45,819 nt of DNA from a bacterium (GCA_035703895.1 DASSXJ010000263.1:1-45819), one strand, 5' to 3'. Shown: positions 37,629 through 41,014, numbered from the stretch's first letter. The notes: a model not told the origin generated them from the letters alone. Program-made: numbers and translations.

Positions 37629-39404
37629 GTGACGTCCCTGGAGCTCCGCCGCGATGTCTGGGCCGGTGCGGCCGCCGGCCTGGCGGGGGGCGGCATCCTC
37701 GCCGCGACGCTGCATCTCCAGGGGAAGATGTCACTGACCGTGGGGCTCACCGGCCTCGCGCCGCAGGCGGCCCCCGCGGTTCAGCTGGGGATCGCGGGTC
37801 TCCTCGGCGCCGGGTTCGGCGCGGTCTTCAGGTACCAGCCCGAAAGCGCGGCGTCGAGCCTAACGGCCGGCCTGCTCTACGGCCTGCTCTGGTGGATCGT
37901 CGGGCCCCTGACCCTGTCGCCCCTGCTGGCCGGCGTGGTCCCGTCGTGGTCGCTCGAGGATGCCGCCGCGGGGTTCCCCGGCCTCATCGCGCATCTCCTC
38001 TACGGCGCAGTGATGGGCACGGCATTCTACCTGATGGCGGGCGCGTGGAGACGAAGAATCCCGGCGCCGCCGCCGGTCCCCGACGCCCCCCCCGTGCGCA
38101 TCGTGATTCTGGGGGGTGGATTCGCGGGTGTGAGCGCCGCGCAGCGGCTCGAGCACCTGCTGCGGCGGAATAGAGCCGTGTCGATCACGCTGGTCAGCGA
38201 GAGCAACTACCTGCTCTTTACGCCCATGCTGGCCGAGGTCGCGGCCAGCGGGTTGGAAGCTCAACACATCAGTGCCCCCGTCCGGGCGGCGCTCCTGCGC
38301 ACGGTGTTCCGGCGTGCCGAGGTCCTGGCGGTCGATGTCGCCGCCCAAACCGTGCGGTTGCGCGCGACGCCGTCGGCCAGAGAGGAAACCCTGCGCTACG
38401 ATCACCTCGTCCTGGCTCTTGGGTCCGTTCCGAATTTCTACGATCTCCCGGGCCTCGAAGCGCACACGTTTTCGCTGAAATCGCTCGAGGACGCGACCCG
38501 GCTGCGCAACCACGTGATCGGGCTGCTCGAGCAGGCCGATGTGGAACCCGACCCTGTGGAGCGCGACCGCCAGCTGACGTTTGTCGTGGCCGGAGGCGGA
38601 TTCGCGGGGACGGAGATGGTGGCGGAATTGTTCGATCTCGTTCACAGTGTGCGGCGCTTCTTTCGGGGCATTCGATCGGCGGATCCGCGCTTCGTCCTCG
38701 TGCACTCGGGTGTGCGCATCCTCCCCGAGCTCAGCCCGGCGCTAGCCGCGTATGCCCAACGTAAGCTGGAAGCTCGTGGAATCGAGTTCCTGCTGAACAC
38801 GAGGGTGGCGGGGGCGAGGCGCGATGCCGTGCTGCTTGTCGGGGGGGATGAGATCGCGACGCGGACGATCGTGTGGACCGCCGGCAACCAGCCGCATCCG
38901 CTGTTGCGCACCCTCCCGTGCGAACGAAACCGGGCCGGTGCGGTGTCCGCGGGGGAGGCGCTGCAGGTCACCGGGTTGGTCAACATTTGGGCGGCGGGGG
39001 ACTGCGCCCAGATTCCCGATGTGCTGAACCAGGGAAAGTTTTGCCCGCCTACGGCGCAGCACGCGCTTCGCGAGGGATGGGTCGTGGCGGACAATGTGGC
39101 GGCCGCCCTGCGGGGCCGGCCACCCCGGCCGTTCCGATTCCGCACGATTGCGGTGCTCGTCGCGCTCGGCCACCGCACCGCGGTTGCGGAGGTGCGCGGG
39201 TGGAAGTTCTCGGGGTTCCTCGCGTGGTTCATGTGGCGGACGGTCTACCTCAGTAAGCTACCCGGGTTCGAGAAAAAGGTGCGGGTCGCCCTCGACTGGG
39301 CACTCGACATGTTTTTCCCTCGAGACATCGCGCTGAGTTCGGCGGCACCGACGCCCACGATCGCCCAATCCGTGGAGGCCTCCGCGGACGGGCCGCGCCC
39401 ATGA
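37629..39404 (+). CDS. Type II NADH dehydrogenase fused to an N-terminal membrane module
   Basis: A 591-residue fusion. Residues ~155-575 are a single-polypeptide NADH:quinone oxidoreductase (NDH-2): the FAD-binding site VRIVILGGGFAGVSAA (about 156-171), the NADH-binding site FVVAGGGFAGTEMVAE, the AAGDCAQIP motif, PPTAQHALREG near the quinone site, and the amphipathic membrane-anchoring C-terminus. NDH-2 passes electrons from NADH to quinone without pumping protons. Residues 1-140 are not part of any NDH-2 I know: they form four hydrophobic helices with LLWWIVGPLTLSPLL and LIAHLLYGA. The same module occurs three times in the next gene. A Pro-rich linker (RRRIPAPPPVPDAPP) joins the parts. The start is GTG; the gene overlaps its neighbour by four bases. 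Confidence 0.88.
   Translation: MTSLELRRDVWAGAAAGLAGGGILAATLHLQGKMSLTVGLTGLAPQAAPAVQLGIAGLLGAGFGAVFRYQPESAASSLTAGLLYGLLWWIVGPLTLSPLLAGVVPSWSLEDAAAGFPGLIAHLLYGAVMGTAFYLMAGAWRRRIPAPPPVPDAPPVRIVILGGGFAGVSAAQRLEHLLRRNRAVSITLVSESNYLLFTPMLAEVAASGLEAQHISAPVRAALLRTVFRRAEVLAVDVAAQTVRLRATPSAREETLRYDHLVLALGSVPNFYDLPGLEAHTFSLKSLEDATRLRNHVIGLLEQADVEPDPVERDRQLTFVVAGGGFAGTEMVAELFDLVHSVRRFFRGIRSADPRFVLVHSGVRILPELSPALAAYAQRKLEARGIEFLLNTRVAGARRDAVLLVGGDEIATRTIVWTAGNQPHPLLRTLPCERNRAGAVSAGEALQVTGLVNIWAAGDCAQIPDVLNQGKFCPPTAQHALREGWVVADNVAAALRGRPPRPFRFRTIAVLVALGHRTAVAEVRGWKFSGFLAWFMWRTVYLSKLPGFEKKVRVALDWALDMFFPRDIALSSAAPTPTIAQSVEASADGPRP
37641..38048 (+). repeat. Membrane module copy 0 (fused to NDH-2)
   Basis: Residues 5-140 of the NDH-2 fusion. 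Shared landmarks with the three copies downstream are the Gly-rich first helix (AAAGLAGGGILAA), GAGFGAVF, W88-W89 followed by GPLTL, and LIAHLLYGA with His122. The second-helix His of other copies is Gln52 here. Confidence 0.75.
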
Positions 39405-41014
39405 TCCGTTCGCCTCTGCTCCGGCACGGCGCGCTGCTGGGCGCGCTGGCGGGATTGGCGGGGGGGCTGGCGTTCGGCGCGGCGATGGCCCAACTCGGCT
39501 ATCTCCCGACCGTGGCGTCGCTCGTGCGGGCCCGCACGCCGGAGACGGGATTCTTCGTCCACATGGCCATCGCGGCCATTGTGGGGGCCGGGTTTGGGCT
39601 GCTCGTCTACCGGCAGCGCCTGGGCGCCGGGGAGATGCTCTTTTGGGGAATGACCTACGGCAGTCTGTGGTGGTTCCTGGGGCCCCTGACGCTGCTGCCG
39701 CTTCTGCTGGGCCGGACCATGGTCTGGGACGTGGGCTCCGCGCAGGCTGTGTTTCCCAGCCTGATCGGGCACCTGTGGTACGGGGCGGTGACCGCGATCG
39801 TCTATGTGATCCTGCGGCGTCGAGTGGGGGCCGCCGGATCCCGGATCGGGCGTGAAGTGATCCTCGTCGGAGCACTCGCCGGGCTTGCGGGGGGGTGGCT
39901 GTTTGGGCGCCTCGTGGACGGGCAGGCCCAATGGCTGGGTTCCTCTGCGTTGCTGAGTCCTGTCACGCATCGCGTGCCCGAGCCGGCGACGGTCCTCATC
40001 GGGATCGCGTCCGGCGTGGGATTCGCGTGGCTGTACCCGCAACTTCACGACGGCTCGGGTCCGATGCTGATCCGGGGCACGATGTATGGCTTCGCTTGGT
40101 GGGTCGCCGGGGCGCTCACGCTCGTGCCGCTGGCGACCGGGATGGGCCTCGGCTGGTCGGTCGAGGCCGCCCGCGCGCAGTTCCCCGCGCTTCCCGGCTT
40201 CCTGCTCGCCGGCGCCTTTCTCGCGCTCGTGTATCGCTGGGTGGACGGGCTCGCCCGGCTGCTCTTTTTCGACGACGTCGGCGCGGAGGACGAAGAAGGG
40301 GTGGGGACACGCGGCCTTCGTGCGCTGGCGCGCGGAGCGTTCGCCGGCCTCATCGGCGGCCTGATCTTCACGATCATCATGGTCCGGCTCGGCATTCTGC
40401 CGGTGATCGCTCGACTGATCGGCGCGTCCTCGCCGTGGAGCGGGTTGATCGTGCACCTGGTGATTGCCAACCTGATCGGGGCCAGCTTCGGCCTGCTGTT
40501 CCTGCGCCGATCCTTCGATCTCGGCTCCGCGCTGGGCTGGGGAGTCTCCTACGGATTCTTCTGGTGGGTGCTCGGTCCCCTCACCCTGCTGCCGCTCCTC
40601 TTGGGAACGGTGCCGCGGTGGACGCCCGAGATTGCCGGGGCTCTGACCGCGAGCCTGATCGGCCACCTCGCGTACGGCGCGGCGGTGGGAATCACATTCT
40701 TTCTCCTGGAGGCGCGCTACAACCCCTGGTGGATCTCCCACACTGATGCCGAGGCGGTGCGCATCGCGCGCCGGAGAGAACAGGTACTCACGTCGGCCCC
40801 CGCGCTCTGGGCGTTGGTGGTGGTCGTCGCGCTGACCCTTCCCGTTGTCCTGACCTGTGGAATGCCGCCGGGCGGTGCGGGGTACTCCATGTCGCCCGCG
40901 GCGCCGCCCTCAGCTCCGCCGAGGACGACCTCGAGTGGGGGCGGCGTCTACGGGGGCGCCGCAGGACCGCACGATTCGTGCGGCCAGAACGGGTCGGTCC
41001 CCAAGACGCCCTAG
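39401..41014 (+). CDS. Polytopic membrane protein made of three repeats of the NDH-2-linked module
   Basis: A 537-residue protein of unknown function. It consists of three ~135-residue modules (about 8-140, 150-285, 305-437), each with about four hydrophobic helices, then one more helix (about 468-486) and a ~50-residue Gly/Ser/Pro-rich tail with two cysteines. Signature blocks are WWFLGPLTLLPLLLG, WWVAGALTLVPLATG and WWVLGPLTLLPLLLG. Modules 1 and 3 have matching histidines in helices 2 and 4 (His54/His352 and His124/His422); module 2 has neither. The start ATG overlaps the NDH-2 stop (ATGA), so the two are co-translated, which suggests a complex with the quinone-reducing enzyme. I do not recognise it as a transporter, oxidase or quinone reductase subunit. 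It converges on the cytochrome oxidase operon. Confidence 0.83.
   Translation: MIRSPLLRHGALLGALAGLAGGLAFGAAMAQLGYLPTVASLVRARTPETGFFVHMAIAAIVGAGFGLLVYRQRLGAGEMLFWGMTYGSLWWFLGPLTLLPLLLGRTMVWDVGSAQAVFPSLIGHLWYGAVTAIVYVILRRRVGAAGSRIGREVILVGALAGLAGGWLFGRLVDGQAQWLGSSALLSPVTHRVPEPATVLIGIASGVGFAWLYPQLHDGSGPMLIRGTMYGFAWWVAGALTLVPLATGMGLGWSVEAARAQFPALPGFLLAGAFLALVYRWVDGLARLLFFDDVGAEDEEGVGTRGLRALARGAFAGLIGGLIFTIIMVRLGILPVIARLIGASSPWSGLIVHLVIANLIGASFGLLFLRRSFDLGSALGWGVSYGFFWWVLGPLTLLPLLLGTVPRWTPEIAGALTASLIGHLAYGAAVGITFFLLEARYNPWWISHTDAEAVRIARRREQVLTSAPALWALVVVVALTLPVVLTCGMPPGGAGYSMSPAAPPSAPPRTTSSGGGVYGGAAGPHDSCGQNGSVPKTP
39422..39820 (+). repeat. Membrane module copy 1
   Basis: Residues 8-140 of the triple-module protein. 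It contains GALAGLAGGLAFGAAMAQLG, His54 in FFVHMAIAAIVGAGFGLL, Trp90-Trp91 before GPLTLLPLL, and His124 in LIGHLWYGAV. Confidence 0.8.
39848..40255 (+). repeat. Membrane module copy 2 (degenerate)
   Basis: Residues 150-285. It keeps GALAGLAGGWLFG and WWVAGALTLVPLATG but lacks both histidines (TVLIGIASGVGFAW and FPALPGFLLAGAF at their positions). It may be structural only. Confidence 0.7.
40313..40711 (+). repeat. Membrane module copy 3
   Basis: Residues 305-437. It closely mirrors copy 1: GAFAGLIGGLIFTIIMVRLG, His352 in LIVHLVIANLIGASFGLL, Trp388-Trp389 before GPLTLLPLLLG, and His422 in LIGHLAYGAA. Confidence 0.8.

Follow-up and report, generated by a model that had tools for sequence, protein, structure and literature searches.

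The window analysed here is a 45,819-nucleotide stretch of bacterial DNA (GCA_035703895.1, DASSXJ010000263.1:1-45819), in which two plus-strand genes encode an NADH dehydrogenase of the NDH-2 family carrying an added membrane domain and a second protein built largely of further copies of that domain. An open reading frame (ORF) check of the window placed the NDH-2 gene at 37629-39404, with a GTG start, and the second gene directly after it at 39401-41014; their ORF limits share the four bases ATGA (39401-39404), the same overlap that the first-pass annotation of this DNA had described. The N-terminal ~140 residues of the NDH-2 protein form a four-helix membrane block, module N (37629-38060). 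It precedes the catalytic domains (38097-39329), which were recognized by Pfam and by structure match and comprise the flavin adenine dinucleotide (FAD) and NADH Rossmann motifs, the AQxAxR quinone motif, and the membrane-anchoring NDH2_C tail. The second gene, which we term the triplet gene, encodes three copies of the module, R1 (39401-39826), R2 (39842-40264), and R3 (40301-40720, the most constrained copy), followed by a 13th transmembrane helix. This helix and the cytoplasmic end preceding it, which bears a PALW motif, span 40745-40852 as judged from the alignment and the model, and are conserved in the family. A C-terminal tail with two cysteines, predicted at low model confidence to face the outside, completes the protein (40853-41014); such a tail was seen only in the window triplet protein and in one relative (in L012).

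The four modules follow a single plan. The NDH-2 block (~142 residues) is 34-41% identical to the three triplet blocks over ~135 columns, and the local alignment scores of block pairs (138-326) lie 13-36 standard deviations above those of same-composition shuffles, the best of which scored 83. Profile-profile comparison by hhalign returned probabilities of at least 99.6% among the module classes compared, namely N, R3, and the solo class, which is composed of single-module genes of 150-200 residues present in many genomes. These alignments, shuffles, and profiles agree with the earlier proposal of one four-helix plan fused to NDH-2 and triplicated in the adjacent gene. The short motifs quoted in support of that proposal are present in blocks N, 1, and 3 and are looser in block 2, which reads GVGFAWL and WWVAGALTLVPLA and has no GHL. 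In a tree of modules R3 was monophyletic (56/56) and the His-bearing copies clustered; the deep branches have low support, and an exchange of R1 and R2 as the second His-bearing module is only a tentative reading of the tree.

From residue 157 onward the first protein is a full NDH-2, with Pfam matches to Pyr_redox_2 (1.5e-45) and NDH2_C (2.7e-10, above cut-off). The dinucleotide-binding motifs, including GxGxxGxE, are represented by G162, G164, G167, G322, G324, G327, and E329, all invariant in 23 aligned proteins from equivalent gene pairs (cassettes), and the quinone motif by A476, Q477, A479, and R481, which are likewise invariant in the aligned cassette NDH-2 proteins. By reference to the published NDH-2 motifs, AQxAxR is a variant occurring in 15% of NDH-2s (PMC5299459). 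The closest solved structure by sequence is the Caldalkalibacillus NDH-2 (4nwz), on which the NDH-2 model superimposed with a template modeling score (TM-score) on the target of 0.89 and a root-mean-square deviation of 2.6 Å. The model of the whole chain is good in the enzyme part and has the four-helix module at its N-terminus. Since the catalytic motifs are invariant in cassette proteins, the enzyme is evidently under selection.

The pairing of the two genes is constant over a wide taxonomic range. When the collection was scanned with the four blocks as queries, the cassette was found in metagenome-assembled genomes (MAGs) labelled Armatimonadetes, Bacillota, and Acidobacteria, in MAGs of Acetothermia, Chloroflexi, Rubrobacteraceae, and Thermoleophilaceae, and in cultured Streptomyces, Nocardia, Microtetraspora, and Pseudonocardia. 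It thus recurs in Chloroflexota, Actinomycetota (Streptomyces, Nocardia, Rubrobacteraceae, Thermoleophilia), Acetothermia, an Acidobacteria-labelled MAG, and the phylum of the window. Its distribution is patchy: whole-genome searches recovered it in 5 of 43 species of the window's own phylum, in ~24 of 400 genomes of a Chloroflexota-centred sample, and in ~11 of 396 genomes of an actinobacterial sample; among plasmid records there was only one weak, partial match. The genome that contains the window has a second, diverged cassette on contig C270 (L044, 629-4059, minus strand), where it occupies most of the 4.6 kb contig. The tie to NDH-2 held throughout, as each of the 55 triplet genes whose upstream DNA could be read lies directly behind a same-strand NDH-2 gene (three further triplet genes, truncated at contig ends, are outside this count). 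A start at the -4 overlap is available in most cassettes, across several phyla, and probably provides translational coupling of the two genes. Pairwise identities of the NDH-2 domain and of the triplet protein co-vary with a Mantel r of 0.96, where none of 999 permutations exceeded 0.14; the two genes co-evolve.

No gene family flanking the pair in long loci recurs widely apart from the pair itself, and we therefore regard the oxidase operon of the window as an incidental neighbour. The first-pass annotation had suggested a functional association with that operon; the operon is encoded on the other strand, converges on the NDH-2/triplet pair, and is not kept beside the pair elsewhere, and the association was rejected as a conserved feature. 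Among the Chloroflexota genomes sampled, all 15 with the cassette had a heme-copper oxidase, against 12 of the 20 without it. Five cassette-bearing genomes of Rubrobacteraceae type (G048, G678, G699, G822, G830) have no COX1 match, and all five match the cytochrome bd family.

The guess that the module is DUF6789-like was borne out. By hhalign, the module classes N, R3, and solo matched DUF1440 at 94-97% and DUF6789 at 89.6-98.6% probability, values obtained against small reference alignments. Cassette modules themselves fall under the Pfam gathering cut-offs, with best sub-threshold scores of 20 bits for DUF1440 (cut-off 34.7) and 11.2 bits for DUF6789 (cut-off 27.1), and an NCBIfam search gave nothing useful for the module. 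Solo modules supply the link: one matches DUF6789 above cut-off (4e-13) and also DUF2938, and another matches both DUF1440 and DUF6789 above cut-off. On the strength of these Pfam matches and the profile-profile links, the module belongs to the DUF1440/DUF6789 superfamily, of unknown function, and forms a divergent branch of it. In two Chloroflexota genomes (L123:5451-7085 and L124:4780-6417) a related module lacking the His pair described below is fused to a sulfite-oxidase-type molybdoenzyme (PF00174, 5.8e-45), and the superfamily is by these fusions attached to a second, unrelated redox enzyme. Solo modules are rich in Met, and about ten adjoin a Crp-type regulator gene (L031, L089-L092, L108, L110, L111, and others); their other neighbours are mixed and not decisive, with a DUF3179 gene near two others and a CcdA-thioredoxin gene near one.

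Across 219 aligned modules, the only strongly conserved ionisable positions embedded in the membrane are two His residues, one near the start of helix 2 and one near the start of helix 4, in the GHLxYG motif. Both are present in 120 modules, neither in 77, and one alone in 22, giving a Fisher p of 1.6e-34 that is only indicative because related sequences were counted without correction. The alignment indicates that the two residues are gained and lost together. The pair is kept in 23/27 solo modules, 49/56 R3 copies, 32/56 R1 copies, 13/56 R2 copies, and 3/24 NDH-2 modules, and most cassettes contain exactly two His-His modules, R3 with R1 in the type represented by the window and R3 with R2 in the Rubrobacter/Anaerolineales type. 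In the window the pair is present in R1 (H54, H124) and in R3 (H352, codon 40454-40456, in model helix 345-366, which is helix 2 of the module; H422, codon 40664-40666, in model helix 416-440, which is helix 4). It is missing from R2 and from module N, which has Q and H at the two positions. The pair extends to the superfamily at large, with both His residues in 18 of 20 DUF1440/DUF6789 proteins examined, E. coli YagU among them. YagU of E. coli K-12 (L130:2992-3606) has another His on the intervening helix, and yagU is divergent from the adjoining paoABC, the genes for a molybdenum aldehyde dehydrogenase. No mention of the His pair as a hallmark of the superfamily was found in the open-licence PubMed Central (PMC) literature searched.

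The AlphaFold model of the triplet protein (mean predicted local distance difference test score 85.6; predicted TM-score 0.87) has four long helices per block and the 13th helix after block 3. Both His residues of R1 and of R3 fall at residue 7-8 of helices 2 and 4, and, since these helices run in the same direction, the R1 and R3 pairs are each predicted to sit at equal depth, near the outer face. The N- and C-termini of the modules are probably cytoplasmic, given the Arg-rich ends and helix 2-3 loop (positive-inside rule) and the cytoplasmic NADH site, and with both termini on that side all modules would be oriented alike.

Taken together, the fixed arrangement of one enzyme-bound and three partner-bound modules, the gene overlap, and the co-evolution of the two genes argue for one complex. 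It is very probable that the NDH-2 and triplet proteins form an obligate two-subunit complex; that the four modules associate as a pseudo-tetramer we rate as an even chance. The explanation we prefer for the whole, held at somewhat under even confidence, is that NDH-2 belongs to a membrane complex handling quinone-linked electrons, with two cofactor sites that are ligated by His and most likely bind heme b. In this scheme NDH-2 would be tethered through its own four-helix module to the 13-helix partner of three homologous modules, with the four modules side by side beneath the NDH-2 domain. R3 and R1 (R2 in one clade) would hold a bis-His cofactor, for which heme b is the first guess, and the NDH-2 module and the remaining module would be mainly structural, keeping the enzyme on its partner. 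The usual absence of the pair from the enzyme-bound module is consistent with a docking role for it, as its retention in two partner modules is with two cofactor sites. NADH would be oxidised at the FAD on the inside, and the usual NDH-2 site would reduce quinone. Modules with the His pair could exchange electrons with quinone or quinol and pass them on, either to a pool of quinone or to an outer-face acceptor. Taken separately, a cofactor or metal of some kind at the His pairs is slightly favoured, and heme b with electron transfer at these sites is a tentative assignment.

Several observations weigh against this interpretation. All His pairs are predicted to lie on one side, the outer, and offer no obvious transmembrane wire. 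Some DUF1440 members have an extra H/D-E on helix 3, a feature more suggestive of a metal or proton site than of a heme pocket. A Foldseek search of the triplet model against the PDB returned only spurious matches (TM-score ~0.2 or below); the triplet profile likewise found no sequence relative in the PDB. Cytochrome b, included as the negative control in the hhalign comparisons, reached 0.1% probability against the module, no detectable homology, and kinship with cytochrome b was rejected. A few cassettes break the two-pair rule, and in one actinobacterial genome, which also has a full cassette, a module-NDH-2 fusion (L173:2457-4652, minus strand) has no adjoining triplet gene.

The best-surviving alternative, which we consider unlikely, is that the modules are a passive platform that only anchors NDH-2 and guides quinone, with the His residues serving in packing or hydrogen bonding and binding no cofactor. 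The Gly-rich helix packing of all modules, the uniformly hydrophobic and well-folded model of the triplet protein, and the fact that R2 and the NDH-2 module work without the pair all fit such a role. However, packing alone is insufficient to account for two His residues that behave as one and persist in solo modules lacking an NDH-2, and 13 additional helices are a costly anchor for an enzyme that ordinarily needs none.

Alternatively, the His pairs may be protonation sites, with the complex moving ions during NDH-2 turnover or regulating an ion leak. That these residues are the sole conserved ionisable ones within the membrane speaks for this idea, as does the best-known member of the superfamily, E. 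coli YagU. YagU, an inner-membrane protein, is induced when the outside is acid and helps the cell to resist acid (PMC2270276). One solo module also has sub-threshold similarity (E 0.025) to YqhR/FigP, which belongs to a spore ion channel (PMC11837508), but this similarity is weak, the helices of cassette modules have no conserved carboxylates or lysines, and a single His level provides no visible path across the membrane; we judge ion coupling rather improbable. Still less probable is metal handling, in which the pair would bind a transition metal (copper, iron, or zinc) to be reduced at the outer face by NDH-2-derived quinol. The abundance of Met in solo modules and the helix 3 residues of DUF1440 relatives, which lie near the His positions, would suit a metal site, but cassette modules have neither Met enrichment nor the acidic residue, and no recurring gene family adjoins the cassette. 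An assembly artefact, which the first-pass annotation had named as a way for its proposal to fail, or a lineage-specific accident has a negligible chance and was ruled out, as no supporting evidence was found, the same genome has the diverged second copy, the same layout occurs in the four cultured genera named above, and the fusion holds in distant relatives.

The preferred reading, a membrane NDH-2 complex with His-ligated cofactors, retains the kind of explanation first suggested for this locus, a membrane platform or electron-transfer partner, with the mechanism worded here as a proposal. The conserved His pair and the strict 1+3 layout of the genes had not been noticed in that first suggestion. 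The NDH-2 enzyme family and the module superfamily are already known, and the module as a domain is in that respect not undescribed. The literature searched appears to contain no description of the fusion, of the triplicated partner, of the conservation of the two together, or of the His pair across the superfamily: no account of the pair was found under DUF6789, DUF1440, or NDH-2 fusions in open-licence PMC papers, and one in a subscription journal is possible. Given the constant 13-helix partner across several phyla, NDH-2 probably includes a sizeable branch whose members are genuine membrane complexes, which may affect energy coupling and inhibitor binding. For the DUF1440/DUF6789 superfamily, YagU included, the His pair provides a concrete and testable functional hypothesis. 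In its broadest form, which we regard as doubtful, the proposal is an unrecognised, widespread integral-membrane NDH-2 of two subunits and 17 helices, with heme b bound through a His pair in two of its four homologous modules, and the superfamily would then be a new class of small membrane cytochromes combinable with different redox enzymes.

Compared with complex I and Na+-NQR, the cassette has no co-encoded iron-sulfur or further flavin subunits, and no widely recurring family flanks it. A known parallel is the Enterococcus Ndh3, an NDH-2 dedicated to extracellular electron transfer together with EetA and EetB (PMC9864754). Both systems have an NDH-2 with its own task and membrane partners, but here the triplet protein is the only constant neighbour; FLEET genes (EetA, EetB, FmnB, DmkA/B) were not seen as recurrent cassette neighbours, although no profile search was aimed at them. 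With DUF1440 (YagU), DUF6789, and DUF2938 proteins the module shares profile homology, four helices, and the His residues on helices 2 and 4. Those proteins are mostly single modules of 150-200 residues with no attached enzyme, whereas cassette modules fall under the DUF1440 and DUF6789 cut-offs and only two of the four carry the His pair. In the cytochrome b of bc1 and b6f complexes, helices 2 and 4 each supply one His, at matching depth, to the outer-side heme bL. The module likewise places one His on each of these helices at equal depth, but the likeness is one of analogy only, since there is no sequence homology and the module has a single His pair with no counterpart on the inner side. 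The ordinary NDH-2 is the textbook non-pumping NADH dehydrogenase, a monotopic single subunit without a transmembrane domain. The enzyme of the cassette resembles it in both Rossmann motifs, the GxGxxGxE glutamate, the AQxAxR variant, the NDH2_C tail, and the fold, and differs in having a four-helix module before the enzyme and a constant 13-helix partner gene after it.

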